Virus record (IMG/VR): IMGVR_UViG_3300031839_000850
Coordinates: 1-40,556 of that record
DNA: 40,556 bases
Source: a virus
Direction: 5' to 3' (one strand)
Shown: positions 6,429 to 36,882 of the stretch, piece after piece
Numbering within the stretch: the first letter of the stretch is position 1
Layout: each line of letters opens with the position of its first letter
Program-made: the position numbers and the translations under genes
The notes under the pieces: generated by a model
Told to the model about the DNA's origin: nothing
The model's input: the letters and a program-made list of their open reading frames with translations, nothing else
Database searches by the model: none

Positions 6429-7214
6429 TTATTTTCCTCTCTTTAATATCGGAGACCAATCAATTCGATAATGAGGCACCACGAGGATCACGTTCTCTAA
6501 AACATCTATACCATACTCAGTGTGCCCAACATCAATCGCAACTATGTACCCCATTATCTTTCCTTTTGAATTGAACACACCTGAACCACTTGACCCAGAC
6601 CACGCATAAGAATTAAAATACACATACTCATCTGTTGAGATTCCCATGACTCTTCCACTCAGTGTGACAGGTCCTATGGTATTGGGATAGCCTGTATAAA
6701 CAAGCGGTTCTAGTGGGGACATCGTCTGTATCCATTCCCTGTTTTTTGTGACAAAATCTTGTGGAAATTTTATGGGCTTCCGATTTATTATTTCTTCCAC
6801 CAACAGTATAGCATAATCATTACGATCGTCATATGAGATTATTTCATCACATGGGTACAGTGTTCCATCAACTTCTACCTGAATCATCTTACACGAAAGA
6901 GTTGCGATTCCATGCCTTACAGTCAGTATAAAATGCTCGTCTCTATGCTTAAAGTATGTTCCGGTTGCAACCGAGACATGACCAGCGTTGGGAGTATAGG
7001 ATACAATCCTAACTGCACTGTTGATCGATCTTTTTACACCTGCTCGGGCAGCAACAGGGAACGAGTTAGACATACTGTCTATTGATCTAAATTCTGCGTG
7101 CGTTGGTATGCGGTTTTGCGTAAGATGCATGTGTGTTATACCCAAGGAAACCAACATCGCTGCTAAGGCGACCATGGCAAGTTGAGATATAATTTTCACA
7201 TATTTCTTAAACAT
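6429..7214 (-). CDS. Trypsin-like serine protease with N-terminal membrane anchor, 261 aa
   Basis: Chymotrypsin-fold protease. His in LTVRHGIA (about 101), Asp in RNDYAILLV (133) and Ser in SGSSGSGVF (about 209) give the full triad; GYP..GPVTLSGRV between them is typical of trypsin-like trimming proteases. Residues 8-30 form a signal peptide or anchor, so the enzyme probably acts outside the cytoplasmic membrane. Substrate unknown. It may help breach or modify the host envelope, or process virion proteins; both are inference. Start weakly supported by AGGTTTGA. Confidence 0.87.
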   Translation of the reverse strand: MFKKYVKIISQLAMVALAAMLVSLGITHMHLTQNRIPTHAEFRSIDSMSNSFPVAARAGVKRSINSAVRIVSYTPNAGHVSVATGTYFKHRDEHFILTVRHGIATLSCKMIQVEVDGTLYPCDEIISYDDRNDYAILLVEEIINRKPIKFPQDFVTKNREWIQTMSPLEPLVYTGYPNTIGPVTLSGRVMGISTDEYVYFNSYAWSGSSGSGVFNSKGKIMGYIVAIDVGHTEYGIDVLENVILVVPHYRIDWSPILKRGK

Positions 7215-7215
7215 T

Positions 7216-10200
7216 TCAAACCTGCATTTGGTAACTGAAGAAAACTGGTACCTGCTCTAAGCCAGCCTTCTTTGCGAACCAGACAACATCCTCATTTCCT
7301 GTGATTCTTACCCTGCCGTTCTTGCCGACTGCCACATACACTGGATTTTCAGCGCCGTTCTTTATAAAATACTGGTAGTCTGCATCAAAAGCATCTTTCG
7401 GGTTGCGGTATACTCTTGATAAATATGGCAATAGCTCCTCTGTGTCCACCATCACGTGATATTGCATATTCGCATTTGCCATGGGCCTGTCGTAGTCCAT
7501 GACACCACTTGCGGCCCAATCGTCTGCTACCTGCTGCACAGACAGGCTGGGGGTGCGCACAGGGCCGCTACCATAGCGAACAGCGCCAAGGGCGCCTGCA
7601 ACGCCTCCAAAGGGCAGCGAAAGCTCGTTAAGCGGTGTTCTATCAGCCGAGTTTATATTTCCTATGCGAAGCACTCTGAGGCCTCGGATGCGCGTCAGGG
7701 CCGGTAACAACACCCTATCTTTGTATCTTTGGCGACTAACGGAGCCCATCAATTCAAATTTAATCTCAAAAGACCCAACAGTGGAGTTGCCCACTCTCTT
7801 GGTGTCTCCCATAGTGCGAACCGTAGTTACTCCCTCGATACCTCTAATCTCAGTTTGTGTGTCTTGAAGTTGGCCACCGACATCTTTTGAAAGCGAAACA
7901 TCAATAGTAACTTTATAGGTCCGTAAATCATATCCGGGATCAATCTCGTTGAGTAACTTATCAATCCTGCTGATCTGATCCTCGACGCTTTCGTTGCGCG
8001 TAACCATTTTGACAGGCTGTCCGCCCATCGATGCTACTTGGTGCGGCACAAGCTCATCAAACATAACAGGCGCACCTGTGTTGTTATCAATCTGACCCAT
8101 GTCAGAGTAAGAGCGGAAGTTGTTTTGTACTATCGGAATAAGAAACTTGGCCACCATGATGTATCTTTCAGCTTCACCCATGTCAGAATAGTTGGCCTCA
8201 AACCATTGTAAGATAGTGACTATTCTATTTGCAACTTCACCAGCGGAACCATCAGCATCAATTCTTCCATAAGTTTCTATACCTCTGTTGATGAGATCCT
8301 GTATCTCTTGATTACTCATCACCTTATCTCTGCGTTTATTAATCTTCTCGCTGTGATCTTCGAGAGCCATGGCGATAATCTTATCAGCAGCAGCAGTCAC
8401 AAGCTCTTCGTTCTCGTTCAAGAACGCTGCGATCTCTTGGATAATCTCAAACTCTTCTGGGGGTGATTGGGGGTTGACGCGCATGCGATACAGCCATTTG
8501 ATTTTTATAAGCGGGTATCGCTCTCGGCTGCCGTCTGGGCGGTAGTTTACGTCTTGGAATATAACAAAGTCAGTGTCGTCTGCTAAGACCATCGTCGGAT
8601 TAGCATCACCATACTTATCACCGAAGTCAAGTTTCTGTTGTCCGGGCGCACTAGCCTTAGACTTTAAGTGCGTTGTGATGGCGCTTGATAACTCTCTCGC
8701 GAACTGAACTGAGTAATCATTTGTTCCTCGCATGTTGGCAAAGTTAAACCTTGGTCCGTACCCAAATATCTCAGCGAACACCGCATCAGGGTTCACACCC
8801 ATACGGTTACCTGTTCCTGTTCCATACATCTGTGCTCTCGCAGAGTCAAACTTGCCTGTGTACGAATGAAGCGGTTGACCATCGTCGGCAGTCCAGTCAA
8901 ACTCAAGACCGCCTTTGTCCTGCTTGACGTGCCACTTGTCGAGGTTTGTGAGCTTCATTAACTCTTCTCGGGAGCGATCGTAGGTGCTCTTCGCCGTGTA
9001 GCCGCCAGCAGCAAGGTTCTGTCTAATTTGCTCTTTGTAGGTAGGCGCGTCGTCTTCCTCAAACGCCAGCATGACGTCAACAAATTCGTCAAAATCTGGC
9101 ACCTCGCCATCTTCGTCGGCTGTAAAGTTTTGATTACTGTGCAAGGAAATGACCAAGTGAACCGTAGCCTCGCGATCTGGATCTATCTCGTCGCCCTCTG
9201 GTTGAGCACTGACGAGTTTTCTTAGGCTGATGTCCCAGTCGCCATCATCACCCGGCATATCATAAATCATGTCATCAATACCAAGTTCTTCAACAAACGC
9301 GCGAAGTCCGCTGTAATCACGTGGGATCTCTTTAAAATCTTGCGGATTGTCAGCTATGTAGAACATGTCAGTTGTGCTGTAATCGGGCCAACCAAGATCA
9401 ATCTCAAATTCATATCTTGCGCTGGCATAGCAGTAAATGTCATTCATCTCTTCTTCAAGATTATAACCAACGTCACCATATTCAAGCTCGTCTCGGTTGT
9501 CGGTGTAGCGGTCCAGCACACCTGCACAGTAATCTTCTGCTTTCTCTAAGCGGTCTTCAATAGAGCCGTGGAAGTTTGCGTTGGTTTCTTGGCTGAGATA
9601 CTCAATCATCTCTTGTATGCCTTCCTGATCGCCTGAGTGCTCGCCTGTCTCTTCTACGTTCTCGACACGCATGTTGTTAATGAACCAAGCGATATGATCC
9701 CATGTTTTTTCATCTGGTGCGTCGTTACTGCGTCCTTTGATTTGGTAGACTGTGTTCTCATATTCGCTGTAAGTCATTGTGACATAGGACGATGATGCCT
9801 TGCGCTTGCCTTGGCGCTTGCGGAGGGACACTAATACGCCGCGAGAGTCAGAGCCGCAGTGTCCCATTCGCTCACCTTCTATGGAGCAGTTAGACACCTG
9901 CAAGTTATACCAGTACGAACCATCTTCAAAGGTGTGGAGGATGTTGTCTGGATCTTCTCGGTTCTCCAAGTCATCCATTGCAGTTTGATAGGCGTTGTCA
10001 ATATCATCGCCCTTGATCAACTCATAGTTCGTCGGCTCATCGTTGAGCCATGAGAACAACTCGTTATATCTGCCCCAGTATGTTCTCCACTCGCCGAGCA
10101 TCTGCTCATTGATATATTCTTTTACAACCTCAACCTTCTCGGAAGGCACACCTGCTTTGCTCAGTGCCTTCAATGCTTTCATAAATGTCTTGCGCCAAGT

Positions 10201-12938: not shown

Positions 12939-13141
12939 CCTTGCTCCATTGGGTATACATCTCTTCTTTTCACATTCCAGTGCATTCCGTTGGCGTAAAC
13001 GCGATATATGTACTGGCTTCGCGTGTTCATGTAAACGCCGGCAACTGGCTTTTCAGCAGTTCGGTGTCTCATGCCTCTTTCAGTCTCACACCACAGTTCT
13101 GTTCCCTGTGGGATGTGGACTAAATCTCCTTGTTGCATCAT
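12932..13141 (-). CDS. Small beta protein, paralogue of 162-551, 69 aa
   Basis: MQQGDLVHIPQGTELWC then ERGMRHR, matching the IPxGTxxxC..RGMxH block of the 162-551 protein and the QxGDLV start of the KVGDLV family. The end NVKRRDVYPMEQ fits a last strand plus helix. Two adjacent ATGs (13141 and 13138) are both plausible after GGAGG. The stop of groEL lies within this start. Confidence 0.7.
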   Translation of the reverse strand: MMQQGDLVHIPQGTELWCETERGMRHRTAEKPVAGVYMNTRSQYIYRVYANGMHWNVKRRDVYPMEQGC

Positions 13142-14727
13142 TTATCCTCCGTTTGAATGATACCATAATTGGTAGTTATCAGAGTGCCGGCACAACTGGC
13201 TGCGTTTTTGAGCGCCGACAGTGTAACCTTTACAGGATCTATAATACCATCTTCTAAGAGGTTTGTCAACTTATTAGCTCTAAAATCCCAACCATCGCTG
13301 GTATTGGCGTTCAATACCTTTTCGACAATCAGGTCTGGTGAGCAGCCTGCGTTTGATGCCATCTGTCTAATCGGCTCGTGACATGCTGCGCGGACGACTG
13401 CCATACCAGCAGCCAAATCGTTTGCTGACACTTCATTCTCCGTTGTCACACAGAGGCTCTCGGAAGCGCGCAATAATGAGGAACCACCACCGGGTACAAT
13501 CCCGGAATCTTGGGCCGCTTTTACAGCCTCCAAGGCATCTTCAATGCGATGTTTCTTCTCAGTCATCTCGACCTCAGTGGCGCCACCTACTCGGATTACA
13601 GCCACACCAGAAGCAAGTCGAACAATTCTTTTTTGAATCACGTTGCAGGCCTCCAAGTCCTCTGTTGCTTCAATCTGTGCTTTGAGCGAATCAATCTTGA
13701 CTTCAATCGCTTCCACGTCCGCACTTCCACCAACAAAGATCGTGGACGACTTTGTACTCTCCACAAACTTAGATGTGCCAAAGTCGACCATCTGAATGTC
13801 TACAAGTTTCTTGCCGGACTCCCGAGACATGAAGGTGGCACCCACTGAAACGGCCAAATCTGAGAGTGTACTTCTCCTCTCTTCTCCGTATGCCGGTGCC
13901 TTGATGGCCGCAACCTTCATGGTACCCCGCATCGCATTCATAATAAGCGCCGCAAGTGCTTGGCCATCGATGTCATCCGCAACCACAATCAATGGGCGAC
14001 CTTCTCGCGCAACCATCTCGAGTGCCGGCAGGATTTGCTCAACGGTGCTGATCTTCTGATCTGTAACCAAGATGAGTGGCTCGTCGTGGTGCATCACCGC
14101 ACGACGTTCGTCGGTTATAAAAGCACCAGCGGTGAAGCCGCTATCGAATGAAAAACCCTCTGTAATGTCCAGAACCGTGTCTGTTGACCGTGACTCTTCA
14201 ATGGTTATTGAGCCATCTTGCCCTACCCTATCAAAAGCCATTGCGATGAGTTTTCCGATAGCTCGATCATTGTTAGCCGAGATTGTTGCCACGTGTTCAA
14301 TGTCTTCAACACTCGTTACCGGAGTGGCCATTGTTTTTAGATTAGACGAGACCTCTCGAACAGTCAGGTCTATCCCTCTCTGTATCTCTACGGGAGAAAG
14401 ACCGCTCGCCAAGAAGCGCTGTGACTCTCGCAAGATAGCTCTGGCCAGAACAGTTGACGTGGTAGTGCCATCGCCTGCGCTGTTGTTAGTTTCGATTGCT
14501 GCTTGCTTAATGATCTCGGCGCCGGCATTCTCAAAAGGATCGTCCATGGATACGAACTGTGCCACTGTGACCCCATCTTTTGTGATGAACGGGGTGCGAC
14601 CCTTTTCTTGTAATAGGACGTTTCTGCCGCGTGGACCGAGCGTGGATGCCACATTGTCTGCTAGCTTATTTGCTCCATCCATGATTTTTTGTTGTAGTGA
14701 TTGATTATCGTCGTATTCTCGACTCAT
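13138..14727 (-). CDS. groEL: Chaperonin GroEL (Hsp60)
   Basis: ATP-dependent protein-folding chamber subunit; 529 aa against about 548 for the bacterial form. Key residues are present: TLGPRGRNV and DGVTVA with Asp51, AGDGTTT (84-90) for ATP, VGGATEVEMTEKK, and RIEDAL carrying the hydrolytic Asp. The C-terminus lacks the GGM repeats of cellular GroEL. A perfect promoter (14754-14782) precedes it. It needs a co-chaperonin, and a GroES-like gene is at 32972-33238, 18 kb away. Possible role: folding the phage's large proteins such as the capsid subunit. Confidence 0.97.
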   Translation of the reverse strand: MSREYDDNQSLQQKIMDGANKLADNVASTLGPRGRNVLLQEKGRTPFITKDGVTVAQFVSMDDPFENAGAEIIKQAAIETNNSAGDGTTTSTVLARAILRESQRFLASGLSPVEIQRGIDLTVREVSSNLKTMATPVTSVEDIEHVATISANNDRAIGKLIAMAFDRVGQDGSITIEESRSTDTVLDITEGFSFDSGFTAGAFITDERRAVMHHDEPLILVTDQKISTVEQILPALEMVAREGRPLIVVADDIDGQALAALIMNAMRGTMKVAAIKAPAYGEERRSTLSDLAVSVGATFMSRESGKKLVDIQMVDFGTSKFVESTKSSTIFVGGSADVEAIEVKIDSLKAQIEATEDLEACNVIQKRIVRLASGVAVIRVGGATEVEMTEKKHRIEDALEAVKAAQDSGIVPGGGSSLLRASESLCVTTENEVSANDLAAGMAVVRAACHEPIRQMASNAGCSPDLIVEKVLNANTSDGWDFRANKLTNLLEDGIIDPVKVTLSALKNAASCAGTLITTNYGIIQTEDK

Positions 14728-17221: not shown

Positions 17222-17821
17222 TTATTTGTTAGTAAGTCTCTTCATGATGCGCTCAGCGAGGGCATCAACTACTTGCTCTTCATTGTTTTTGGCTTGAAGT
17301 CGTGCTGCAACGCGGCGGGCAACTTCGTTGACGATGTCCTCTTCCATCATGGGAGCTTCCATCTCGTCTTCTTCGGCATCCATAGCCATGTCTGCGTCCA
17401 TCTCAACGTCCGCGTCCATATCGGCGGCCATGTCATCGTCCATGTCATCGTCTTCGTCGTCCATCTCAGTAGACACTGGTTCGCCCAGAACGTCTTCTAA
17501 TGCACCTTCAAGTGCAGACATGAAGTCATCAACCGAGACCATATCTTTGCCGCCACCGGCGTCCATGTCAGCACCCATGTCCATATCCATATCCATGTCC
17601 ATGTCACCTAACTCAGCGCCTTCTTCATCGGCCTCTGCATCTTCTGCACCTAATTCGTCTTCTGTCGCGTCGAGTTCGCCTTCGAGTTCGTCTTCTTCAT
17701 CACGGGCGCCGGGCATCTCGCCGTACATTTCTGCTATCTTGTTGTCACCGATAGGTCGGAGTTCAGCAAGCTTCATGAAGCTGCGGATCTCGGATTCGGT
17801 TAAAAGGGGTTTACGAGCCAT
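17222..17821 (-). CDS. Very acidic Asp/Met-repeat protein, 199 aa
   Basis: Low-complexity acidic centre (roughly 35-160) with DMDMDMDMDMG and DMDDDMAADMDAD runs between folded ends: LLTESEIRSFMKLAELRPI (5-25) and a helical C-terminus (EEQVVDALAERIMKRL). Acidic, scaffold-like proteins of this plan occur near capsid genes of marine phages, with the N-terminal 'LTExxIRxFMKLA' block. Directly upstream of the terminator and the ClpP-like gene. A scaffold or core role is inferred. Preceded by AAGGAGAAAG and the ACTATTTATTA motif. Confidence 0.78.
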   Translation of the reverse strand: MARKPLLTESEIRSFMKLAELRPIGDNKIAEMYGEMPGARDEEDELEGELDATEDELGAEDAEADEEGAELGDMDMDMDMDMGADMDAGGGKDMVSVDDFMSALEGALEDVLGEPVSTEMDDEDDDMDDDMAADMDADVEMDADMAMDAEEDEMEAPMMEEDIVNEVARRVAARLQAKNNEEQVVDALAERIMKRLTNK

Positions 17822-17886: not shown

Positions 17887-18135
17887 TTACCAATAGTTGG
17901 TACGACGTTTCATCTTAAGTAGGGCCTTCTCTTCAATTTGTTTGACCCTTGCAAATGAAATTCCTAAGCGCTCCCCCACTTGTCGCAGGGTGAGGGAGCC
18001 TTTTTCGTAGACCGAAACGAGAGTACAGTTGTGCTCCTCTTCGTAATCGATCCACATTCTACAATCCTCGTGAGGACAGCTTTCTTCTAGTTCTATGCAC
18101 TTTCGCGAGCATGGCCTAAGTCCATCACAATTCAT
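17887..18135 (-). CDS. Sigma-70 region 4-like protein with cysteine cluster, 82 aa
   Basis: Residues 48-75 (SLTLRQVGERLGIS, ARVKQIEEKALLKMKRR) are a sigma region 4 helix-turn-helix, the part that reads the -35 box. Before it are Cys 3, 9, 13, 20, 25 and 37, which may bind zinc, plus CRMWIDYEEEHNC. There is no region 2, so it cannot act as a full sigma factor; it may redirect or tune host RNA polymerase at the TTGAC boxes found here. Start overlaps the upstream stop; GAGGAG lies 11 nt before the ATG. Confidence 0.85.
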   Translation of the reverse strand: MNCDGLRPCSRKCIELEESCPHEDCRMWIDYEEEHNCTLVSVYEKGSLTLRQVGERLGISFARVKQIEEKALLKMKRRTNYW

Positions 18136-18464
18136 AAGTCAGGGTGCTCCTCGGCTATTAAGTCAAACAAATCATCAATCTGCTCATTTGAAAACCCGGC
18201 GTCACTGTTTACTTGTTGGCCTTTCTTGCGTAGCTTTTGTGATTTATTCTTCTTTTTGACAGACTGTTCTTTTATATCATCCACAAAACTTAATATCCTT
18301 TCATCTTGTTGTAGGTATCCAGTGATCATGGCTCTAAAAAAGTGAGACTGTTTCAAATCATCGTGGCGCAGCCTGACAATTAATTGAGCATGCCTGTGAT
18401 CATTTTCTGTAAACACTATCTTCTTGTTAAGTTTGCCATAGTTCACCTCTTGTGTGTCTACCAT
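18132..18464 (-). CDS. Hypothetical basic protein, 110 aa
   Basis: N-terminal half KIVFTENDHRHAQLIVRLRH then QSHFFRAMITGYLQQD looks like a strand plus two helices, the order of a ribbon-helix-helix DNA-binding unit; the second half is very lysine-rich. Similar short proteins occur in marine phages beside the region 4-like gene, so a regulatory role is possible. Overlaps the upstream gene by 7 nt and the downstream one by 4. Confidence 0.68.
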   Translation of the reverse strand: MVDTQEVNYGKLNKKIVFTENDHRHAQLIVRLRHDDLKQSHFFRAMITGYLQQDERILSFVDDIKEQSVKKKNKSQKLRKKGQQVNSDAGFSNEQIDDLFDLIAEEHPDL

Positions 18465-19498
18465 GCCCTGCTCCGAATGTGCGTACCGCTTTCTGACAGT
18501 CCTGAATTGGTCTGCCTGATAAACTCTGCCACACTGGCTAGTTCAGGTATTGTTCGCGCGCCACTATATGAAAGGCCCGATCGAATGCCATTCTTTAAGT
18601 CTTCAAATATTCTGCTTACGGATCCCCTATAAGGTATTCTGGCGGAAACACCCTCGAAAGAAGAATATTTCCCACGCCAACCAATCTGGGCTTCTTTGGA
18701 TGCCATTCCGCGATAAGTCTTCCATCGGCTGCCGTCAGACTCCTCGATAACTTTACCGGGAGTCTCATCGGTTCCCGAAAGCAGAGAGCCACACATGACA
18801 GCATCAGCACCAGCAGCCAAAGCTTTAACAATGTCTCCGGAGTTTCTAATGCCACCATCAGCAATAATTGCTACGTCTCTGTCAGTCTGAGCACACTCAA
18901 AAACAGTATGGAGACCCGGTACGCCGTGTCCGGTTTGGATTCGGGTAGAACAGATGGAGCCACCACCAATGTTGCACCTAACAGAATTGGCACCCCAATC
19001 AGCAAGATCGTTAACACCTTTTAGTGTTGCGACATTGCCTGCCATAATATGAAGGTCGGGACCGAACTCGGAACGCAGGTTTGTTATTGCCTCTTTCATC
19101 ATCAAGTGGTGACCATGGGCGACATCAATACACAGGAAGGTTGCGCCGGCCGACACCACAGCAGTGGCGCGGTCCATAAAATCACCAGTCACTCCGACAG
19201 CAGCACCGATCACAATAGTGCCATCGCCTTGTGCTGCGGCCAAATCACGTGCCATTGAGACGTATCTTGCCTCGAGCATGGGGGTGTTATAGCGGTGGAC
19301 AACTGCGGTGCCTCCTGCGTGCCCTATGGCAGCCGCCATGCGAGACTCGGAAACCGTATCCATCGGTGAAGCCAAAACAGGAAATTGTAACTTTAATCCG
19401 TTTGTCAAGTCTGTATCAATGGATACCTCCGATCGACTGCGGATGTCTGAGTATCTCGGACTCAGCAATACATCATCGTAAGATAGGCATTCTTTCAT
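18458..19498 (-). CDS. guaB: IMP dehydrogenase-type enzyme without CBS domains, 346 aa
   Basis: TIM-barrel IMPDH/GMP reductase family. [10 protein letters not shown] and SPMDTVSES open the barrel; catalytic loop GGGSICSTR at about 177-185 with the nucleophilic Cys; [20 protein letters not shown] and YRGMASKEA; flap [12 protein letters not shown]. The sequence after the Cys and in the DGGIR strand is closer to IMPDH (IMP to XMP) than to GMP reductase, though the length resembles GuaC. The usual Gly-Pro-Gly-Ser reads GGGS here. It would raise GTP supply for phage DNA. It follows the thioredoxin-like gene with GGAGGA in its last codons. Confidence 0.88.
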
Positions 19499-20460: not shown

Positions 20461-20934
20461 TTATCGATTGATGCTTTCTACTCGCCAAAGTTCTTCCCCT
20501 CCATCGAACACTACAACAGCAGAGGGGAAGGGAGCGCTGTTGGTGCTGTCACCGAACTTAAGTCGGCCTTTTACAAAGTGAATCTCAGATGCCTTCATGA
20601 CATGCTCATGCCAATACTTGGTATCGGTTCGCGCTGGAATAAGCATCACTACTTTGGTGTGCTCGTTTTGCGCAGAGAGCCTCGCTTTCTCAATCCACCT
20701 ATCAATACCCCGGCCATACGGAGGGTTGACAAACACCGTGTGGCCGGTCCAATCCTTCGACAAGCCGTTTTCTGCTTCGGTGTAGAAGTTTGCACACTTG
20801 GTATTATGTGGACTGGCGCATGGATCCAAATCAAATGGGCCAAAGCGCCAGCTTAGCTTATCAAAAAATTCTTGTGGTGTTGCCCAGTTACCTGTCTTGG
20901 AACTGAACATGGTTTGTTGTGTTTCTTTATTCAT
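20461..20934 (-). CDS. dam: Phage DNA N6-adenine methyltransferase (Dam-type), 157 aa
   Basis: Matches the short phage Dam family: TGNWATPQEFFDKL, FDLDPCAS (34-41), ANFYTEAENGLSKDW, VFVNPPYGRG with NPPY at 70-73, and APFPSAVVVFDGG. It methylates adenine in DNA, probably guarding phage DNA from restriction or from its own nuclease. AAGGAAAACA before the ATG. Just downstream of the Eco57I-type methylase, so two active methylases are adjacent. Confidence 0.92.
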   Translation of the reverse strand: MNKETQQTMFSSKTGNWATPQEFFDKLSWRFGPFDLDPCASPHNTKCANFYTEAENGLSKDWTGHTVFVNPPYGRGIDRWIEKARLSAQNEHTKVVMLIPARTDTKYWHEHVMKASEIHFVKGRLKFGDSTNSAPFPSAVVVFDGGEELWRVESINR

Positions 20935-20942
20935 TGTTTTCC

Positions 20943-22352
20943 TTAAAAGTTATATGTTTTAAAAAGTTCTTTTGAGATGCCATACCATCCCCCGCTTAGA
21001 CTCTTGCCGCGTTGTGTTATCCAATCGTATAGTTGTTCTGTTTCAAAAAGTTTCTGTATCTCCGCTAGCGTGGTATCCTCATTTGGGAAGATCGCGTAAC
21101 CAGAGATGTAAAGTTCTTTCTCGCTGCTAGACCTGAGTGTCAGCTTCTCTTTGTGCATGGGCGGCACCAGCAGTTTCTCTTTGTTGTTCGCAAGACCTTG
21201 TGTTCTCCCATAGCCGTGCCACTTTGCAGCATCAATCTTACCTTTATCTCTCTTTAACAAAAGATCCTTGTGCTTTTGCAGATAGTTGTGTGCTAGTGGG
21301 TACATGGCCTTGAAATCAACCTCGTCGATAAGATTATTGGCCTCATCATATGGAAAGATAATATATGTGTTTTCTTTAACTTGTGATATCTTACTAGCCT
21401 TAATACACTTTCGAAGGGCGGCTCGCTCTATCTCTTGAGTTCCCAGTTTGGTTTCAAAAATACAAGTTGACTTGCTTGATTCAGCCAATACCTCTCCAAA
21501 ATAAACTTTATCACAGAGAGTCGCTAGGCCAACCTTGATATCACAATAGTCTAATAGATTTTTTGTGCTGTTCCCTGATTTGAAAGTTAGTCCTGAAAAC
21601 ATATGTGATTCCGTAGACTCATCATAACACACCCCTATCGGTGTGTCAACAATGTCGTTCGAAAACTTCATATTTGATGATTCCTTACCAAGCATTGTTA
21701 CTATTGAGGTATAAGTTTGGACCCCATCAAACACGAGTTTCTCTTTGAAGTCCACAAGCTCACTCACAAGCCGTTCATCATACAAATATTGACGGAGCTT
21801 TTTTGTTCCCTTGTTTCGAATCCAACTGTTGGGGCAAATCATTCCCACAATCTTCTTGCTCTTGGCAAACTTCTCGAAGAAAGCAATATAAATATCCGTG
21901 TCACCTTCGCAAAAATCAAATGATTCCTGTAAAAACTCTCGCGTCTGTATGTCTAGGTTCTGAATTCTTACGTAAGGAGGGTTGGTGACAATGATATCAA
22001 AGCGACCGTAATCCTCTTTGAGGGAATTTGCATGCCAAACATTGCAGTGGGGCATGAGCCCCTTCAAAACCCCTAGGGCATCCGCATCTAAATCAAACCC
22101 GTAGATGTATTTTCTGCATACCTCATCAAACTCCAAGTCCCAACGATCAGCGATCTTGCGTGCCATGTCGTATAAAAAGACACCAGTACCACAACATGGA
22201 TCGACAATTTTAGGGATAGATTCTTCACGCCAAGCAGATAAAGCCGAGCTATTGATCCAGTCTACGATATGAGATGGAGTATAGATTATCCCTAGGTTCT
22301 TCTTTTTTTCCTCTGGGACTTGCTTGGTGTACTCGTAAAAATCTTTATGCAA
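20943..22352 (-). CDS. Eco57I/TaqI-type N6-adenine DNA methyltransferase, 469 aa
   Basis: GIIYTPSHIVDWI, AdoMet motif IVDPCCGTGVFL (51-57), FDLDADAL and catalytic FDIIVTNPPYVRI (NPPY at 124-127) mark a type I/IIG-like adenine methylase; the C-terminal 200 residues are a target-recognition-like region (LVPPMHKEKLTLR). No helicase or nuclease domain is fused. A putative nuclease gene overlaps its start by 8 nt. TTG start at 22352 with AAAGGTTG upstream. Confidence 0.9.
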   Translation of the reverse strand: MHKDFYEYTKQVPEEKKKNLGIIYTPSHIVDWINSSALSAWREESIPKIVDPCCGTGVFLYDMARKIADRWDLEFDEVCRKYIYGFDLDADALGVLKGLMPHCNVWHANSLKEDYGRFDIIVTNPPYVRIQNLDIQTREFLQESFDFCEGDTDIYIAFFEKFAKSKKIVGMICPNSWIRNKGTKKLRQYLYDERLVSELVDFKEKLVFDGVQTYTSIVTMLGKESSNMKFSNDIVDTPIGVCYDESTESHMFSGLTFKSGNSTKNLLDYCDIKVGLATLCDKVYFGEVLAESSKSTCIFETKLGTQEIERAALRKCIKASKISQVKENTYIIFPYDEANNLIDEVDFKAMYPLAHNYLQKHKDLLLKRDKGKIDAAKWHGYGRTQGLANNKEKLLVPPMHKEKLTLRSSSEKELYISGYAIFPNEDTTLAEIQKLFETEQLYDWITQRGKSLSGGWYGISKELFKTYNF

Positions 22353-22935
22353 TCTTCAACCTTTCGATAGCTTCTCGAAGCTTCTCTGTTCCTTCAATAT
22401 TATAAGCCATCTGACCACTCAAGTCAAACCTAATCTTGCAAAAGCTGACAAAAGAACCATCTTCAAGATAACTGTTCCACCGCTTCTCTGCTCGCGAGGT
22501 ATCAGGAATTTTTGTGACTTCCATCTTCTGACCATTGGGAACCGTCTTGGGCACCCAATCGATCGTGATGACTGATACTCCCTCGTGCATGGGCAGATCT
22601 TTGATGCGGCCAACTTCGCCTTCAAGCGTGTTTGCGTAGTTTTGACGATTCTTGTTGTAAGACTTCTGGACGGCTTTCAAGAGAATCGCTGCTTTAAATT
22701 CGCCATCCCTATAAGCCAAAACATCAACTGTGAAGGTTTTGCCACGAGCGCAGGGAATTCTCTTTTCAGTTTTAAAGTGCCACCCCTCTTTGGGAGAGAG
22801 GACACTCTTAAAAATTTGAATAACTTCCTCATTCAGAACGTCTGTTGTTTTGCTGCTGCGACTGCCGGTCTCTCCAAGGTGGTGCCTCATTGAGTTGCAC
22901 GCTAACCACGGCTTTACGTATTCAGGATTATTCAT
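22345..22935 (-). CDS. Putative restriction nuclease paired with the methylase, 196 aa
   Basis: Start ATG 22933-22935 after GGGAG; an earlier Met would overlap dUTPase more. Residues about 65-110: RGKTFTVDVLAYRDGEFKA then AILLKAVQKSYNKNRQNY and LEGEVGRIK, the Asp...Lys order of the PD-(D/E)XK fold, with Leu where Glu is usual before the Lys. This, the overlap with an adenine methylase and the small size suggest a type II restriction-modification pair, but activity and site are unknown. Confidence 0.62.
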   Translation of the reverse strand: MNNPEYVKPWLACNSMRHHLGETGSRSSKTTDVLNEEVIQIFKSVLSPKEGWHFKTEKRIPCARGKTFTVDVLAYRDGEFKAAILLKAVQKSYNKNRQNYANTLEGEVGRIKDLPMHEGVSVITIDWVPKTVPNGQKMEVTKIPDTSRAEKRWNSYLEDGSFVSFCKIRFDLSGQMAYNIEGTEKLREAIERLKIA

Positions 22936-23383
22936 CCGTACTCCCGAGGGCTCCATCGCCCCTATTGCTGATTGTCATTGGGTGAGCATACAGATCGGAC
23001 TCTTCTGCTAAGACTGGTCGAAAGTGAACCACTGGTGTTAGAACCAACTGTGCGATCTTGTCGCCGTCTGCGACCACTTGGAGTTCGCTTCCCACATTGT
23101 GCAGATTGATAAAGACTTCCCCATCATAGCCGGAATCTATAACACAAGCCCCAACTATCAGAGATTTCTTTGCTGCTATGCTGCTTCGATTCTTTACCTC
23201 CAACATGTATCCGTGAGGTACCCCGAACTTCAATCCTGTTTCGAAGATCTTGCTGTCTCCGGGATTCAGGATCACCGAAGTTGGCTTAGTTGGAGAATAG
23301 AACACATCCAATCCAGCATCAGACGGATTTGCGCGATCAGGGTTATTAGCGTTCGGACGAACTTTTGCGTATTCTAAAATCAT
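22928..23383 (-). CDS. dut: dUTPase (trimeric type), 151 aa
   Basis: Hydrolyses dUTP to dUMP and PPi, keeping uracil out of phage DNA. All five motifs are visible: DAGLDVF, NRSSIA, VIDSGYDGEV, GDKIAQLVL, and NRGDGALGSTD, which lacks only the last Gly. Length equals E. coli Dut. Start overlaps the upstream stop (TAATGA); end overlaps the nuclease gene. Confidence 0.96.
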   Translation of the reverse strand: MILEYAKVRPNANNPDRANPSDAGLDVFYSPTKPTSVILNPGDSKIFETGLKFGVPHGYMLEVKNRSSIAAKKSLIVGACVIDSGYDGEVFINLHNVGSELQVVADGDKIAQLVLTPVVHFRPVLAEESDLYAHPMTISNRGDGALGSTDE

Positions 23384-25062: not shown

Positions 25063-28000
25063 TTATCCTAGGAGTTTGAAGTTTCTCCACATAGCGAAGG
25101 TTGAGAAGCCCCAATTTTCATCGTAGTCCAGCTTCGCCATGTAGGGTCTGTTGAGTTGGATGCGATCCTTGTTAGGATTTACTCCCCAACATCTAATTCT
25201 AGTTAGTTCGTTATTAGAATCAATGACTTCTAAAATCCAATATAGCTTACCCTTTTTGGTTTTTCGCTCAGTTACCTTGCGTGGAATAAACCAACAAACT
25301 TGAAGCTCTGGATCAAACTCCGAGATGGGAGGAATAAACCGATCTTGTAGCTTTTGAATAGTTTCCGGGGTGATAACTAAGTTCATTGGGAAAATGCCAG
25401 TCAGTTCCGTCTTAAAGTGAATAATTTCTTCTTCGGAAAAATCACCCTCCGGCTTGTACAGATCGAGATTCTCTTGGAACTTTTTGAGATTCTTTGGTCT
25501 TTCGACCACACAAGCAGACCAGAAGTGCTTGCGACCAGTGAACCGATCATCTACAATGTTGTCAAGAGCCCCGCCGCGACACAAGGCATCGATAGCCTTC
25601 TTGTTCAGCTTAGAGTAAGAGACGCCTTCGCGGAATAGCAAGTCTTCTGCGTTCATGAATGGGCGATGATCAAGTAACTGCTCGATCGCAGCGGTGCCTA
25701 GGCCCTTGATGGACGACAGCGGCTGAATCAACGTAAGGCCATCGTCACTGATTTCCCACACCATGCCTGACTTGTTGATGTCCAGTGGTGCAATCTTGAA
25801 GCCGTACTGCTTGGCAATGTTGATGGCCTTCTCTTTGCGGCTCTCAGGCTCCTTGTCCAAGAATGCAGCCATCCACTCTGCTGGGTAGTAGTTCCATAGC
25901 CACGCACACTGGAATGAAATGATGGAGTAGCTAACGGCATGGGACTTGTTAAAACCATACCCCGAGAAGTACTCGAACTTGTCCCAGAGTGCTTGAGCTT
26001 CGTCTTGCCTAATCTTGTTTGCTGCGCAGCCCTTGATAAACTTATCGTGCAACTTACCTTTCACAGAGCCCTTGCCGGTACCCTTCTTGGTCAACACCTT
26101 GCGAAGCATATTACCCTCATCGAGAGTCAAACCGCCAAGCTTGTGGGCCAACAACGCAATCTGCTCCTGAAAGATAAGGAACCCAAAGGTCTCTTGTGTG
26201 ATATCATGCGCATCGTCGTTCAAGTACTTGATGTAATGTGGATTCTCCTTCGCCTCAACATATTCATCATGGACATTAGCTGCCAGCGGACCCGGCCGGT
26301 AGATAGAAGTAATAGCAGACACATCAATGATGTTTCGCGGCTTCGCACGAACGCAGAACTTCTGAGCACCCTGCTCTGTGAACTGGAAGATACCAGCCCA
26401 CTTTCCTGTATGGAAAATGTTTTCGTAGACTTGCTGATCATTCAAATCGATGATATCTGGGTGCAAGGTTTGCTCGTAGTAGTCTCGAATTTGTGCGAAC
26501 GTTGGATTCTCGACGTTATGGTGACGTTTGAGAATGTGATAGATCGCACCCTCCATCATCTTAAGTGTCGATAGACCCAGCAGATCGAACTTAATGAATC
26601 CCATGGGTTCGAGATGGCGCACGTTTTGGCCCTCAGCCCACGGTGCCTGTCGCACACCTCCGGAGTTAATCAAAGGCATACTCTCATCCAAGTTTTCTGC
26701 AATAACAACTCCACCAGCATGGCGGGAGCAAGAGCGGACCTGACCAACCAAGCCTTCGACGTGAGTTTTAACTGCCGGATGCTTGTCGAGATAGGAGCGC
26801 AGAGTCGGCGAAAACTCGATGACCTCCTCCCACGTTGGAGTATACACACCAGCCTTGATGCCATGCTTCTGCTTAGCAAATGGAGTGGCCTCACGCATCA
26901 TGATAGATGTTACCGTGTTGACCTCTGTAAATGGAATGTTGTACAACTTGGAAATGTCCTTGATCAAAGACTTGAGTTGTAGCGTATTCCAGTTGGAGAT
27001 AGGGGCGACACAATCTTCTCCCCACATCTCAACAAGCTTCTCCTTCAAAGACATGGAATCCGATACATCGTAATCGATATCCGGATAGTCGGTTGCATCC
27101 GAGCGCAAGAAGCGAGAGAAGAGCAGACCATTCTTAATAGGATCAACCTGTGTGATGTTTAGCGCGTATGCCACCAGCGAGCCAGCAGCGGAGCCGCGGC
27201 CGGGACCGGTGAGCATCATGTCAGTCGCGACATCAGTGATCGACTTCATGGTCAGGAAATACTTTGAGAAACCACGATCATCGATGACATTGAGTTCTTG
27301 ACGAAGGCGACTTGTATATTCCTTATTCTTGTGTAGACCCTTGTCTTTTAAGCCTTCAAGGGCAAAGTTAACGAGTGCCTGTGTTGCTGTAAAACCAGCA
27401 GGAACGACGAACTCAGGTAGCCTAACCGTATTATCGGGCAAGAAATTGTCGATCCTATCGAACGCAATGCGATGACTCTGTTCAATGCTTTGCAAAATCA
27501 AATCATCATCGTAGTCAAAGCCCTGCTCAGAAGAGTACTGCTTGTAGCTCTCCCACATCTGATCTCCATTCTTGGGATACAACTCGTAGCCGATCTCCTC
27601 AACACCATCTGGAAGTTGCGATTCCTCTTCCGCCCATGATGGGCGGCCTTTGCCAAGCCAGCCAAGGCGCTTGTAAAGCTCTCTGTCCTTCCAAGCATCA
27701 GGGTTGGGGTAGTGGCTATCTGCCGTAGTAAGAAGGGCTACATCAAACTCCTGAGCCACTTGAATGACATACTTGTTTAGTTCATGCTGTTCCTTGATAT
27801 TATTCCATTGGATCTCGGCATACCAGCGATCACCGAAAATGTCGACCATACGACGGGTGGATTCGCGCATAGCTTCCAGTACGGCTTCGGTGCCATCTTC
27901 TCGGTTCTCCCAGTAGTTACCGGCATACACCCCACCAAGACAAGCAGAAGAAGCAATAATGCCTTCATTGTACTTCTTGAGTAGTTTGTAGTCGATGCGT

Positions 28001-28494
28001 GGATAGCGATAAAAGTTCTCCGGCTGATATGATTCGGATACCAATTTAAATAGATTATTAAGCCCTGTTTGGTTCTGAACCAGTAGAACAAGGTGGCGAC
28101 GTCGCTTCAAGATACCTTGAATCTTTTTGCTGTCGCCCTCATCTTCAACAGTAGCGCCCGATTGGGCATCCTTTTTGATAGCGCGGGCCTTCTTCTTATC
28201 TTCCATGGCCTGATTGTATGCATCGTGCCACTCATCGATAGATGGTGTGAAGTATGCCTCACAGCCAAAGATAGGCTTGAATTCCTTGCCGGCCTCCTGC
28301 ATCCTCTTGGCATGTAGTACCTGATATGCTAGCCCGTTCATGTTACCATGATCGGTTAGCGCCAGTGCGTCACAGCCATTCTCGTACGCAAAATCCATGT
28401 GGGCTTGCGGGTACCCAATAGCATCAAAAATAGAGCCTGCCACAGAATGTGCATGCAGGCCAACGAACTTAATCTTGGATTGTTTACGATCCAT
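25063..28494 (-). CDS. dnaE: DNA polymerase III alpha subunit (DnaE-type), 1143 aa
   Basis: Main replicative polymerase. PHP domain at the N-terminus (VGLHAHSVAGS, LALTDHGNMNG, GCEAYF, TADSHYP). Palm: GPGRGSAAGSLVAY (about 430), DYPDIDYDVSD with the metal Asp pair (about 468), and IKFDLLGLSTLK (about 634). Fingers, a helix-hairpin-helix region and a C-terminal OB fold (RIRCWGVNPNKDR) follow. It is close to the full bacterial length but the very C-terminal tau-binding part looks reduced. No clamp, loader or primase is in this window. GAGGAGG before the ATG; promoter just upstream. Confidence 0.97.
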   Translation of the reverse strand: MDRKQSKIKFVGLHAHSVAGSIFDAIGYPQAHMDFAYENGCDALALTDHGNMNGLAYQVLHAKRMQEAGKEFKPIFGCEAYFTPSIDEWHDAYNQAMEDKKKARAIKKDAQSGATVEDEGDSKKIQGILKRRRHLVLLVQNQTGLNNLFKLVSESYQPENFYRYPRIDYKLLKKYNEGIIASSACLGGVYAGNYWENREDGTEAVLEAMRESTRRMVDIFGDRWYAEIQWNNIKEQHELNKYVIQVAQEFDVALLTTADSHYPNPDAWKDRELYKRLGWLGKGRPSWAEEESQLPDGVEEIGYELYPKNGDQMWESYKQYSSEQGFDYDDDLILQSIEQSHRIAFDRIDNFLPDNTVRLPEFVVPAGFTATQALVNFALEGLKDKGLHKNKEYTSRLRQELNVIDDRGFSKYFLTMKSITDVATDMMLTGPGRGSAAGSLVAYALNITQVDPIKNGLLFSRFLRSDATDYPDIDYDVSDSMSLKEKLVEMWGEDCVAPISNWNTLQLKSLIKDISKLYNIPFTEVNTVTSIMMREATPFAKQKHGIKAGVYTPTWEEVIEFSPTLRSYLDKHPAVKTHVEGLVGQVRSCSRHAGGVVIAENLDESMPLINSGGVRQAPWAEGQNVRHLEPMGFIKFDLLGLSTLKMMEGAIYHILKRHHNVENPTFAQIRDYYEQTLHPDIIDLNDQQVYENIFHTGKWAGIFQFTEQGAQKFCVRAKPRNIIDVSAITSIYRPGPLAANVHDEYVEAKENPHYIKYLNDDAHDITQETFGFLIFQEQIALLAHKLGGLTLDEGNMLRKVLTKKGTGKGSVKGKLHDKFIKGCAANKIRQDEAQALWDKFEYFSGYGFNKSHAVSYSIISFQCAWLWNYYPAEWMAAFLDKEPESRKEKAINIAKQYGFKIAPLDINKSGMVWEISDDGLTLIQPLSSIKGLGTAAIEQLLDHRPFMNAEDLLFREGVSYSKLNKKAIDALCRGGALDNIVDDRFTGRKHFWSACVVERPKNLKKFQENLDLYKPEGDFSEEEIIHFKTELTGIFPMNLVITPETIQKLQDRFIPPISEFDPELQVCWFIPRKVTERKTKKGKLYWILEVIDSNNELTRIRCWGVNPNKDRIQLNRPYMAKLDYDENWGFSTFAMWRNFKLLG

Positions 28495-33238: not shown

Positions 33239-33458
33239 CTCTTATCTCCTTGTGAATTAGTTTTTCTTGTATAAAGTATTCTTCCTTCGTTAGGAATGCA
33301 TCTCTTCTTTTACCGCACCTCTTGCAAACCATGGTTAGGTGAACGTTTTCTCCCAACATAGTCCGAACAGGGCCGCGCGGAACATAGTAACAGCTAATAT
33401 TAAGTTTACCACATGTTGCTTTAAGTTCCCTTTTGTCCATTAAGTGGTTAAAATTCAT
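33231..33458 (-). CDS. Small cysteine protein, zinc-ribbon-like, 75 aa
   Basis: Four cysteines: ATCGKL, ISCYY, and CKRCGK. The stretch VCKRCGKRRDAFLTKEEYF looks like a zinc knuckle followed by a helix. No function known. Overlaps the ribonucleotide reductase stop and the groES start (8 nt). Confidence 0.75.
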   Translation of the reverse strand: MNFNHLMDKRELKATCGKLNISCYYVPRGPVRTMLGENVHLTMVCKRCGKRRDAFLTKEEYFIQEKLIHKEIRDV

Positions 33459-35422
33459 ATCTCACACGTATCATTAGTGCAGAATTTTGTACCGGCGCCG
33501 GCTTCATCGGTGTCGATGCGCTGAATCGGGGTTACCTTTGAAGACATTTCGAGATACTTCTTTTTTGTGATTGGCTCATATGGAGCCTGCTTGTAGCCGG
33601 TCTCACTGAGCCTTAAGAACGAAACTGCTTTTAGTCTTGTCTCATACATCTCTAATGCGCTTTCAATTTGCTCCGCTTCATCACCCTTGAAGGTGACTGT
33701 GACAGACACTGCGTTATCTGCCCAGTAATACTGATACTGTGCTGCCAACTCGAGCTGCTCCCACATGCTAACATCTTTTTTACCTTTTGTGAAGAATTCC
33801 TCTTTCACAGGAAATTCTACGACAGATGTGTTTGGTGAGTACGCATCATCTTCGATGTGGTATCCCGCCTCACGCAAACTATCTAAAATAGGAGAAGTAT
33901 TGGAAAATCTGATACGGCGAATATAATACTCATCCTCCGGGAAATGGATCCCCGGTGTTGAGCCATTAAGCAGGGACACTGTTCCCGATGGCTTGATTGA
34001 AGTCATCTTGATTGATCGAGGGACACACAGCCAGTTGGAATATTCCTTATCAAGCTCCCGAATGTCCTCATACGCCTCGTCACACCAGTTAAACATTTGG
34101 CGGCGGCCGTGCTTGGCAAAAGCCTGAACAATCCCAGACTGGGACAACCCGATGCGTCGATTTTTGAGCATCTTTGCGTTAGTTTCTGGCCAGTGTGTAT
34201 TCACAAGTGTGACGGTTTTACCGTACAGATATGCACATTTTAGTGTCTTCAAATAGTCATCGTAGTCATCATGCTTAGCAGGAAAGGTCTCTACAAGACA
34301 GCACAACTCTGCGTTGTGCAGGCTCTGTTCAACACAGGGATTGAACCCAACAACCTCAGCATCGTCATAATTGACGCCGTCCTTTAATCTGCCATAAGCG
34401 CGTGCATTTTCAAGCCAGATAGTTCCGGGTTCACCGTTATCCTGAACCTGTGCAGCGTGCCACGAATAATCCATACCAACGGGTGCATTATAAGAGTTGT
34501 TGGAGCCCCATCGGTGATGATAGAGCTTTTCTTGATCGTTCTTCATTTCCAAATAGTGTGTATCAGAATGCTCTCCGAGAGCCAATGCCGCTGAGCGTCG
34601 GACATTGCCGGCAACAACACAGCGACCAATCAAGTTTTCAGTATCAACTATGTCGACAGAACTAATTGATTCGCCAATTCTTGAAGTATACAGTTCTGTT
34701 AAGTTTTTGTGCAACTCTATGAGGGGGCCGGCACCAGATGAGGTACCGCCGAAACCATGAATCGGCGCGCCTTCTGGTCTGATAGCCGAATAGTCAAACT
34801 TCGGAACTTTATAACCCAAGAGAAAACCATCCAATAGGGCATGAACAGAGTCCACCCAGCCTTCTCGCGAGTCATCAATTACAAGGACATCGTTAGTATA
34901 CTGTGGTTCACAAATCGTGACAGTTCCGGCGCCCTTTGTGTCGAATCCAACGCCGACACCTACCATAAGCGCATCCATAATCCAGCCGAAGATGTAGCCA
35001 CCCTTGGTTGATAGATCCGCAGTTGATCTGAAGGCGCAGTTAAACAACGCAGCACCAGTTCTTTCTTTCACGAATTTCGTGCCCATCATCCATAGGCCGC
35101 GGCCGGGTGGGGTCCATTTCAAATTAAACAATCTATCAAAAGCATCCTTCGCTGTGCGCTGTGCCTTTTGGTCATTCCACTCTAACCCTAGACGGATGAC
35201 ATGCTCTTTCTGTATATCAAACATGCCTTCGATGACGCGCCGGCATGTGTGCCACCACTCTTCGGTGCCTGATGTTCCGGGCTCGAATTCACTCAATCTT
35301 CGGGCGTAGGTGCGCTTGAAAGTTACGTAACCAAGGGCGCCCCATGGGACTTCTGCTTCTTTGTATGGCTCAATAAAAGAGTCAGACAATCTGAATCTGC
35401 GGATGTTCTCTACTGTTCTCAT
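33455..35422 (-). CDS. nrdJ: Class II (adenosylcobalamin-dependent) ribonucleotide reductase, 655 aa
   Basis: Monomeric RTPR type. ALFNCAFRSTADLSTKGGY and GVGVGFDTKG near the N-terminus, GNVRRSAALALG, NPCVEQSLHNAELCCLVE at about 357-374 with active-site Cys and Glu, and SIKPSGTVSLLNGSTPGIH. C-terminal FCTNDTCEI gives a swinging Cys pair for re-reduction. Slightly shorter than the Lactobacillus enzyme (739). Makes dNTPs from NTPs; needs B12, so the host must supply it. AAGGAAA before the ATG. Confidence 0.95.
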   Translation of the reverse strand: MRTVENIRRFRLSDSFIEPYKEAEVPWGALGYVTFKRTYARRLSEFEPGTSGTEEWWHTCRRVIEGMFDIQKEHVIRLGLEWNDQKAQRTAKDAFDRLFNLKWTPPGRGLWMMGTKFVKERTGAALFNCAFRSTADLSTKGGYIFGWIMDALMVGVGVGFDTKGAGTVTICEPQYTNDVLVIDDSREGWVDSVHALLDGFLLGYKVPKFDYSAIRPEGAPIHGFGGTSSGAGPLIELHKNLTELYTSRIGESISSVDIVDTENLIGRCVVAGNVRRSAALALGEHSDTHYLEMKNDQEKLYHHRWGSNNSYNAPVGMDYSWHAAQVQDNGEPGTIWLENARAYGRLKDGVNYDDAEVVGFNPCVEQSLHNAELCCLVETFPAKHDDYDDYLKTLKCAYLYGKTVTLVNTHWPETNAKMLKNRRIGLSQSGIVQAFAKHGRRQMFNWCDEAYEDIRELDKEYSNWLCVPRSIKMTSIKPSGTVSLLNGSTPGIHFPEDEYYIRRIRFSNTSPILDSLREAGYHIEDDAYSPNTSVVEFPVKEEFFTKGKKDVSMWEQLELAAQYQYYWADNAVSVTVTFKGDEAEQIESALEMYETRLKAVSFLRLSETGYKQAPYEPITKKKYLEMSSKVTPIQRIDTDEAGAGTKFCTNDTCEI

Positions 35423-35427
35423 TTTGT

Positions 35428-36831
35428 TTATTTCCTTTTTCTGTATTTTTCGTATTTATTTAACAACAGTTCTTTCTGTTGTTTGGGACTGAGCGCAACT
35501 GGATTTCCCGGAATAATAGCCGTTTTGGGATTAGCGCTAACCGTGTTGGTTTTTGGCATTGTTTTTATCTTAACACATGAGGTGTCCATAAATATATCAT
35601 ACACTATTCCATCAGGTCCGTTTCGGTTTTTTGCAATAAAAATCTTGCCGGTATTGTTTTGCTTATCTTCGATAGTGCGAGATACCGACATGATGAAGTC
35701 TGCTACAAAACACTTGTTAAATGCCTCTGAAATCTGCTCCATCGTAATGACCTCAGCATTCAAGCCTGATCGGTTTGTCTGCGATGCTGTCCAAATAGGA
35801 CAATCATATTCATTAGCCATTCCTCTGAGATCTTCATAGATTGATTCAAGCTCTGCTCGTTTTTCTTTTCTAACAACCACTGGTTTGAGCAGATCGCCAT
35901 AATCTACGATAATTAGGCCCGGATTAATTCCGCGTTTGCGCAATTTGTTCAAATGAGCCTTAATAGTGTTGACACTGGCAGATTTTGTAGGGTACTCTTT
36001 TACTATCAGAGTGCCATCGAGATCCTTGATTTCATCATAGATCTCTTCTTTGAAATTCATGAGATCACTCAAAGGATAGCCTGTAATGCAGCTATCATAC
36101 CTGTTTGCAATAACTGTATCCTGCAACTCCAAGGTGTAGTGGATAACCGTCTTTCCCTCTTTTATCGCCTGCGCCCCAAGGTGTACCAAAACCATGGATT
36201 TACCAGCGCCGGTGGGAGCAATAACAACCCCCAATTCATTTCTACCAAGCCCACCACCAACAATGTTGTCAACGTCTTTCCATCCGGTTGTGACCGGCTG
36301 GCGATGTCGAGGCTGGTACCTTACCTCAAAGTCTGCAATAAAGTCGTGGCCAAAGTTAGTTTCAGACCCAAGCCTTAGTGAATCGTTAATAACTTTTGAT
36401 ATTTCATCATACGAAGAAGATTCCAGTAGCCCCACTGAGCGAAGCATGGCTTCTTTAAGATTTTGCTTACGACAAAAATCAAGGGATTTTTCTTTGATGT
36501 ATTCTTCGTTGTCAAGCTCGCTTGTTGTGACTCGTGTAAAATACTCTTTGACTTGCTGTTGTATAACAGCGTCCTCAGAATCCAACTCAGTCTTAAGAAT
36601 TGTTGCAAGGGCATCTGGTGACGGGTGTTTGGAATACCTGTCTCGGTAGGAGGTTATCTTATTGGTAAAAACACGAAGATATTCAAGCTCTAAAAAGTTG
36701 AGATCTAATACTTCGGTTATCTGGTCTGCGAAGGGCCGATCTTGATAAATTAACTGTACCAACCCTTCTTGAAAAGTCTTTCCGTAACGGCCAAAAGTTT
36801 GCCGTTTATCCGTGGCTTTGGAAACGCTCAA
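35428..36831 (-). CDS. DnaB-like replicative DNA helicase, 467 aa
   Basis: RecA-fold helicase. Walker A APTGAGKS at 205-212, Walker B LIIVDYGDLLKP, TASQTNRSG sensor and SEAFNKCFVADFIMSVSR. The N-terminal 170 residues are helical, as in DnaB/T4 gp41. It unwinds DNA ahead of the polymerase. TTG start at 36831 after GGGGG; no better ATG close by. Driven by the promoter at 36855-36882. Confidence 0.93.
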   Translation of the reverse strand: MSVSKATDKRQTFGRYGKTFQEGLVQLIYQDRPFADQITEVLDLNFLELEYLRVFTNKITSYRDRYSKHPSPDALATILKTELDSEDAVIQQQVKEYFTRVTTSELDNEEYIKEKSLDFCRKQNLKEAMLRSVGLLESSSYDEISKVINDSLRLGSETNFGHDFIADFEVRYQPRHRQPVTTGWKDVDNIVGGGLGRNELGVVIAPTGAGKSMVLVHLGAQAIKEGKTVIHYTLELQDTVIANRYDSCITGYPLSDLMNFKEEIYDEIKDLDGTLIVKEYPTKSASVNTIKAHLNKLRKRGINPGLIIVDYGDLLKPVVVRKEKRAELESIYEDLRGMANEYDCPIWTASQTNRSGLNAEVITMEQISEAFNKCFVADFIMSVSRTIEDKQNNTGKIFIAKNRNGPDGIVYDIFMDTSCVKIKTMPKTNTVSANPKTAIIPGNPVALSPKQQKELLLNKYEKYRKRK

Positions 36832-36854
36832 ACGCCACCCCCTGTGAGTTTATA

Positions 36855-36882
36855 ATTATAACAGAACCTACCCATAAGTCAA
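36855..36882 (-). promoter_or_regulatory. Sigma-70-like promoter for the helicase
   Basis: Reverse strand: TTGACT (36877-36882), 16 bp, TATAAT (36855-36860), 24 nt before the helicase start. Confidence 0.78.

Follow-up and report, generated by a model that had tools for sequence, protein, structure and literature searches.

Methylases carried by phages are commonly interpreted as a protection against restriction by the host. Virus-borne restriction-modification (R-M) systems, in which methylase and nuclease genes are adjacent and the viral DNA is marked, are known from chloroviruses and marseilleviruses (PMC7019647, PMC7253447). Chloroviruses package their restriction nucleases, which degrade the DNA of the host, and for those of marseilleviruses exclusion of competing viruses has been proposed (PMC7253447, PMC7019647). 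In Eco57I and the type IIG enzymes, nuclease and methylase form one fused chain. The CCGG-family nucleases Cfr10I, Bse634I and NgoMIV have an active site with the permuted order D...K...E, instead of D...(D/E)xK (PMC6344858).

The present study concerns a 40,556-base IMG/VR record (the window, i.e., the whole stretch of DNA analysed), in which the gene of a putative PD-(D/E)XK endonuclease, hereafter Nuc, overlaps that of an Eco57I-type adenine methylase and is followed by a Dam gene. The locus shares the adjacency of methylase and nuclease genes with the chlorovirus and marseillevirus systems, but these belong to eukaryotic giant viruses and rely on other enzyme families (e.g., CviAI, GATC), whereas Nuc represents a tailed-phage family without sequence match, adjoined by three alternative methylase families, and marking of the viral DNA is here proposed. 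The window methylase resembles Eco57I as a member of PF07669; unlike in the type IIG enzymes, nuclease and methylase are encoded by separate ORFs, and the methylase (469 aa) lacks a nuclease domain at its N-terminus. In the literature, incompletely covered, no paper was found on the pairing, fold or active site of the Nuc family, and the publications on phage- and cyanophage-borne R-M were general reviews with nothing on this family.

Gene layout of the window

The cassette and its flanks comprise the following features, L001 and L002 being the two closest relatives:

18458-19498: guaB/IMPDH, beyond Dam, with a few small ORFs in between
20461-20934, minus strand: phage Dam adenine methyltransferase (PF05869/TIGR01712)
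20935-20950, minus strand: junction AAGGAAAACA ahead of the Dam ATG, marking the methylase boundary relative to L002
20943-22352, minus strand: Eco57I-type adenine DNA methyltransferase, 469 aa, TTG start (PF07669/N6_Mtase)
22345-22352, minus strand: 8 nt shared by the Nuc 3' end and the methylase start
22345-22935, minus strand: Nuc, putative PD-(D/E)XK endonuclease of 196 residues (PHROG 21547); open frame, ATG at 22935
22928-23383, minus strand: dUTPase, overlapping the Nuc start by 8 nt; also the upstream neighbour in L001 and L002

All three frames of the nuclease, Eco57I-type methylase and Dam cassette outlined in the preliminary description are open on the minus strand. The 8-nt overlap between Nuc and the methylase was borne out, and the two are likely to be translationally coupled through it; Dam, previously placed 9 nt past the methylase, is separated from it by 8 nt (20935-20942). 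A second in-frame ATG upstream of Nuc, at 22956, is located within the dUTPase gene. The identities assigned to both methylases also held. The Eco57I-type enzyme matched PF07669 (2.4e-22), retains intact motifs I (DPCCGTG) and IV (NPPY), and is similar over its whole length to relatives adjoining Nuc in other phages, while Dam matched PF05869 (5e-35) and scored above the curated cut-offs of both PF05869 (121.1 vs 28.1 bits) and TIGR01712 (phage_N6A_met; 99.0 vs 97.05 bits). The cassette had been said to sit between dUTPase and guaB as if native: the flanks are as described, with small ORFs before guaB, but its native status is doubtful, since it occupies other positions in related phages and the tree of the methylase is at odds with that of the polymerase.

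The window also carries a large-phage gene set (13138-14727, 18458-19498, 25063-28494 and 33455-38791), encompassing GroEL, IMPDH, a bacterial-type DNA polymerase III alpha, ribonucleotide reductase, DnaB helicase, an exonuclease, and the UV-endonuclease UvdE (PF03851, 1e-55). The phage is large and probably lytic; seven related contigs, one of 187 kb, gave no integrase match, which is consistent with a lytic life cycle. Downstream of IMPDH in L001 lies a counterpart of an 82-aa window protein (17887-18135, minus strand) matching sigma-70 region 4 (PF04545, 2.6e-9), possibly a small phage sigma-like factor. A very acidic protein with Met-Asp repeats (MDMDMDMDMGADMD...; 17222-17821, minus strand) has counterparts beside similar neighbours in L001 and in another Nuc-bearing contig, L010.

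The Nuc family and its predicted active site

The only family match of Nuc was PHROG 21547, annotated as of unknown function. Searches of Pfam, NCBIfam and PADLOC returned nothing, and those of PDB sequences nothing convincing, with either the single sequence or a 54-member profile, so that naming the protein from sequence alone was abandoned. Profile searches retrieved approximately 100 relatives in viral contigs, as well as relatives in the cyanophages S-CAM7, S-WAM1 and ACG-2014f, and none in GTDB genome contigs or plasmids; a bacterial or plasmid origin was rejected on account of this absence from the contigs and plasmids searched. The sole bacterial-contig relative of the window methylase was weak (21%). 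GenBank entries label the cyanophage genes of this family as hypothetical. The S-CAM7 member (BFVD A0A1D8KTP6), of the same PHROG 21547 family as Nuc, carries the name 'Restriction endonuclease' in a viral structure library, and this database name already points to restriction.

AlphaFold models were obtained for window Nuc (pLDDT 73, pTM 0.75) and for the cyanophage-type member L030 (pLDDT 92.6, pTM 0.88). Both display a helix, three strands, a helix and a strand, i.e., the alpha-beta-beta-beta-alpha-beta order of the PD-(D/E)XK core. Foldseek searches against the PDB returned mainly PD-(D/E)XK enzymes, namely Bax1, BstEII, McrC, EcoT38I, NucS, Can2 and PfoI for the window model, and BstEII, YaeQ, MGME1, DrdV and XisH for L030. 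BstEII (PDB 9ibq) ranked second for the former (E 2.4e-4, prob 1.00) and first for the latter (E 3.7e-3, prob 0.99), with 11-13% identity and TM ~0.3-0.45, values that do not demonstrate homology with Nuc. Because Foldseek TM-scores were low throughout (0.3-0.45), Nuc is assigned to the superfamily only; at this level, the models support its identification as a PD-(D/E)XK nuclease, in agreement with the initial call.

The absence of the usual Glu before the Lys (ILLK) proved to be a family-wide trait, the residue two positions before Lys being always Leu (L85). D, K, E and R are among the residues invariant in 61 unique Nuc sequences and, after adding distant members, the invariant set (window numbering) consists of E57, F68, D71, L85, K87, K95, N96, N99, N102, G106, E107, R110 and two prolines. 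As the four residues persist across the 61 relatives and in the deeper members, the pattern read from the alignment is not due to chance. In the window model, D71 lies on strand 2 (67-76) and K87 on strand 3 (79-88), while the models place the invariant Glu107-x2-Arg110 in the helix following strand 3. The nuclease had been considered divergent: the canonical (D/E)xK is indeed missing, but the protein is not simply degenerate, since the lost Glu has a putative match in the invariant Glu107 of the next helix, as in the permuted D...K...E enzymes. Nuc would share this order with the CCGG family, but no sequence similarity to it was detectable, and the invariant and near-invariant columns of Nuc do not include the R-(D/E)R recognition motif. 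The K-to-E spacing also differs, being 20 residues in Nuc and 14 in NgoMIV, counted from its lysine K187.

Purifying selection acts on Nuc both with and without an adjacent methylase, with dN/dS of ~0.1-0.3 in cyanophage pairs with unsaturated dS.

Methylase neighbours and evolutionary history

Outside the cyanophage group, 11 distinct Nuc loci were recognised (the window, L001, L002, L010, L027, L096, L098, L177, L178, L195 and L214). The first retrieval of L096 and L098 used a methylase query, that of the remaining loci Nuc; a Nuc profile that included these two recovered them again. An adenine-methylase gene lies directly downstream of Nuc in all 11, with a spacing of -20 to +13 nt and mostly overlapping. 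The partner is Eco57I-type in eight loci, Dam in two (L001 and L002) and a PF01555 methylase in one (L195); the pairing with an Eco57I-type enzyme thus recurs in seven distinct viral contigs besides the window. In L096 and L195, Nuc is joined by different methylase families, and the kinds of flanking genes are the same in both, RecA-like upstream and 5'-3' exonuclease-like downstream. Several further contigs have the cassette after DNA polymerase III alpha; in the window it stands between dUTPase and Dam.

In a first set of 52 non-redundant members, the gene directly downstream encoded a PF01555 methylase in 14 cases, mostly overlapping Nuc, an Eco57I-type enzyme in five and Dam in two, with no recognised methylase in 29 and two members left unassigned. 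More than half of the non-redundant cyanophage copies stand alone. Among the Nuc-bearing cyanophage genomes examined that are complete or nearly so, each carries an adenine methylase somewhere: S-WAM1 and G010 (187 kb) have a D12-type Dam elsewhere in the genome, S-CAM7 a PF01555 methylase ~14 kb from Nuc, and ACG-2014f a PF01555 methylase adjoining Nuc, plus D12 types. Since D12-type Dam is frequent in cyanophages (421 records), its presence is weak evidence.

Two other partners were considered and discarded. Dam as a universal protector, with GATC as the target, was rejected, as no PF05869 or D12 Dam was detected in G023, a 187-kb relative with Nuc and an Eco57I methylase, and GATC shows no particular depletion in the window (0.78 observed/expected, a value similar to those of several palindromes). 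Cytosine methylases were dropped because PF00145 had no match in 13 records.

Further genes were observed around these loci. A PurA-like (adenylosuccinate synthetase-like) gene directly follows the Nuc-Eco57I pair in L097 (2048-3073) and L098 (6440-7465), and another lies upstream of Nuc in L178 (2623-3624). A few genes downstream of its pair, L178 has a 319-aa ORF (6824-7783) that contains a methylase-like motif, NPPF, and is without Pfam match. Approximately 3 kb upstream of the pair in L177 (1-1047), a metalloprotease-like N-terminus (HEMCHH) is joined to a PF01555-type methylase-like C-terminus. In L007, from the 735-kb phage LR756501 (4983-7163), a 231-aa ORF (6468-7163) stands tail-to-tail with a distant Eco57I-type methylase; this ORF has an RSNKRT motif like Nuc and a weakly Nuc-like N-terminus (hhalign prob 43%), and the two genes are possibly a remote version of the Nuc-methylase pair.

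The pair is not fixed. L001 and L002, whose Nuc is 73% and 68% identical to that of the window and, in L002, whose polymerase is 87% identical, show the order dUTPase-Nuc-Dam-IMPDH, with Dam directly overlapping Nuc, and no Eco57I methylase was found within these partial contigs of 4.3 and 19.3 kb. The window sequence AAGGAAAACA-ATG before Dam resembles AAGGAAAAATA-ATG of L002, which is the coding 3' end of its Nuc, and this resemblance sets the presence/absence boundary at the methylase. The gene was either gained by the window or lost by L001 and L002; loss is favoured, given that the pair also occurs deeper in the family, with trees that are not decisive.

The grouping of the window and L002 with L177 is rejected by polymerase data (p 5e-6), and that of L010 with L177, a pairing of the polymerase tree, by methylase data (p 8e-4). 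The methylase, and probably the whole cassette, thus moves relative to the phage backbone. In a five-taxon comparison, the histories of Nuc and methylase looked congruent. With L177 and L178 added (seven taxa), methylase data reject the window with L177 (p 1.4e-10), though Nuc is most similar between these two (identities of 50% for Nuc and 39% for the methylase), with no significant support either way; the methylase topology is not rejected when Nuc data are taken alone (p 0.08). Strict co-inheritance is therefore not claimed, and these comparisons make an exchange of methylase partner likely. The pair first noticed in the window is one state of an exchangeable nuclease-methylase module.

Proposed function and alternative readings

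The reading we favour, with somewhat more confidence than doubt, is that Nuc and a companion adenine methyltransferase constitute a phage-borne type II-like R-M module, with Nuc as a sequence-specific endonuclease having a permuted D71...K87...E107 site. Gene layout, predicted fold class, invariant residues and recurrent adjacency were observed; cleavage, a target sequence, protection by methylation and the biological target would follow from this reading. The companion methylase would mark the phage DNA during replication, so that virion DNA is already protected, and Nuc would cut unmarked DNA in the infected cell, i.e., the host chromosome and/or superinfecting DNA. In the window, the companion would most likely be the Eco57I-type enzyme of the overlapping gene; its role may be taken by the neighbouring Dam in the sister phages and by the PF01555 methylase in cyanophages. 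As in type II systems, the two genes lie side by side and the partner has intact motifs. Since the nuclease is kept beside adenine methylases of three families, methylation that spares the phage's own DNA is the simplest use.

The R-M reading is weakened by the persistence of Nuc without the Eco57I methylase in L001 and L002 (partial contigs) and, in 29 of 52 members, with no methylase recognised next to it, as a strict R-M nuclease lacking its methylase should kill its own phage, and by Nuc and methylase identities that do not track each other in L177. The same cases, together with the variation of methylase family between phages and the unchanged catalytic residues and selection in solitary copies, speak for a less probable alternative: Nuc would degrade host DNA blind to the neighbour's methylation, and the methylases would be separate anti-restriction genes in the same variable region. 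T4 endonucleases II and IV degrade host DNA, exploiting another base modification. Shared location alone, however, hardly explains direct and mostly overlapping adjacency to three families in 11/11 non-cyanophage loci, and every complete or near-complete cyanophage genome examined has an adenine methylase, though D12-type Dam is common anyway.

A structure-specific PD-(D/E)XK nuclease of repair, recombination or replication, unrelated to restriction, appears improbable: Bax1, NucS, MGME1 and YaeQ are among the structural matches and the gene preceding Nuc is often DNA polymerase III alpha or RecA-like, but a core replication gene would not be expected to show such patchy presence, varied positions in the genome and recurrent neighbouring methylases, and BstEII is a top match of both models. 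Least credible is a methyl-directed (type IV or DpnI-like) nuclease against methylated host or competitor DNA, which would suit a small nuclease lacking an adjacent methylase in many cyanophage contigs, but not one encoded immediately beside methylases by which the DNA of the phage itself would be marked, nor one without any type IV family match.

Extending the R-M reading beyond the window, we tentatively suggest, with less confidence than for the module itself, an unnamed family of phage restriction endonucleases with a putative D...K...E site, in which the nuclease is kept and the protecting methylase swapped (Eco57I-type, PF01555 or Dam). Lytic phages, including cyanophage isolates, might thereby destroy unmarked host or rival DNA, with solitary copies depending on a phage methylase encoded at a distance. 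The location of a widespread phage nuclease family next to three adenine-methylase families points to some lytic phages restricting DNA themselves, instead of only escaping restriction. As members occur in the sequenced cyanophage isolates S-CAM7 and S-WAM1, host-DNA degradation, superinfection exclusion and tolerance to methylase exchange are directly testable.
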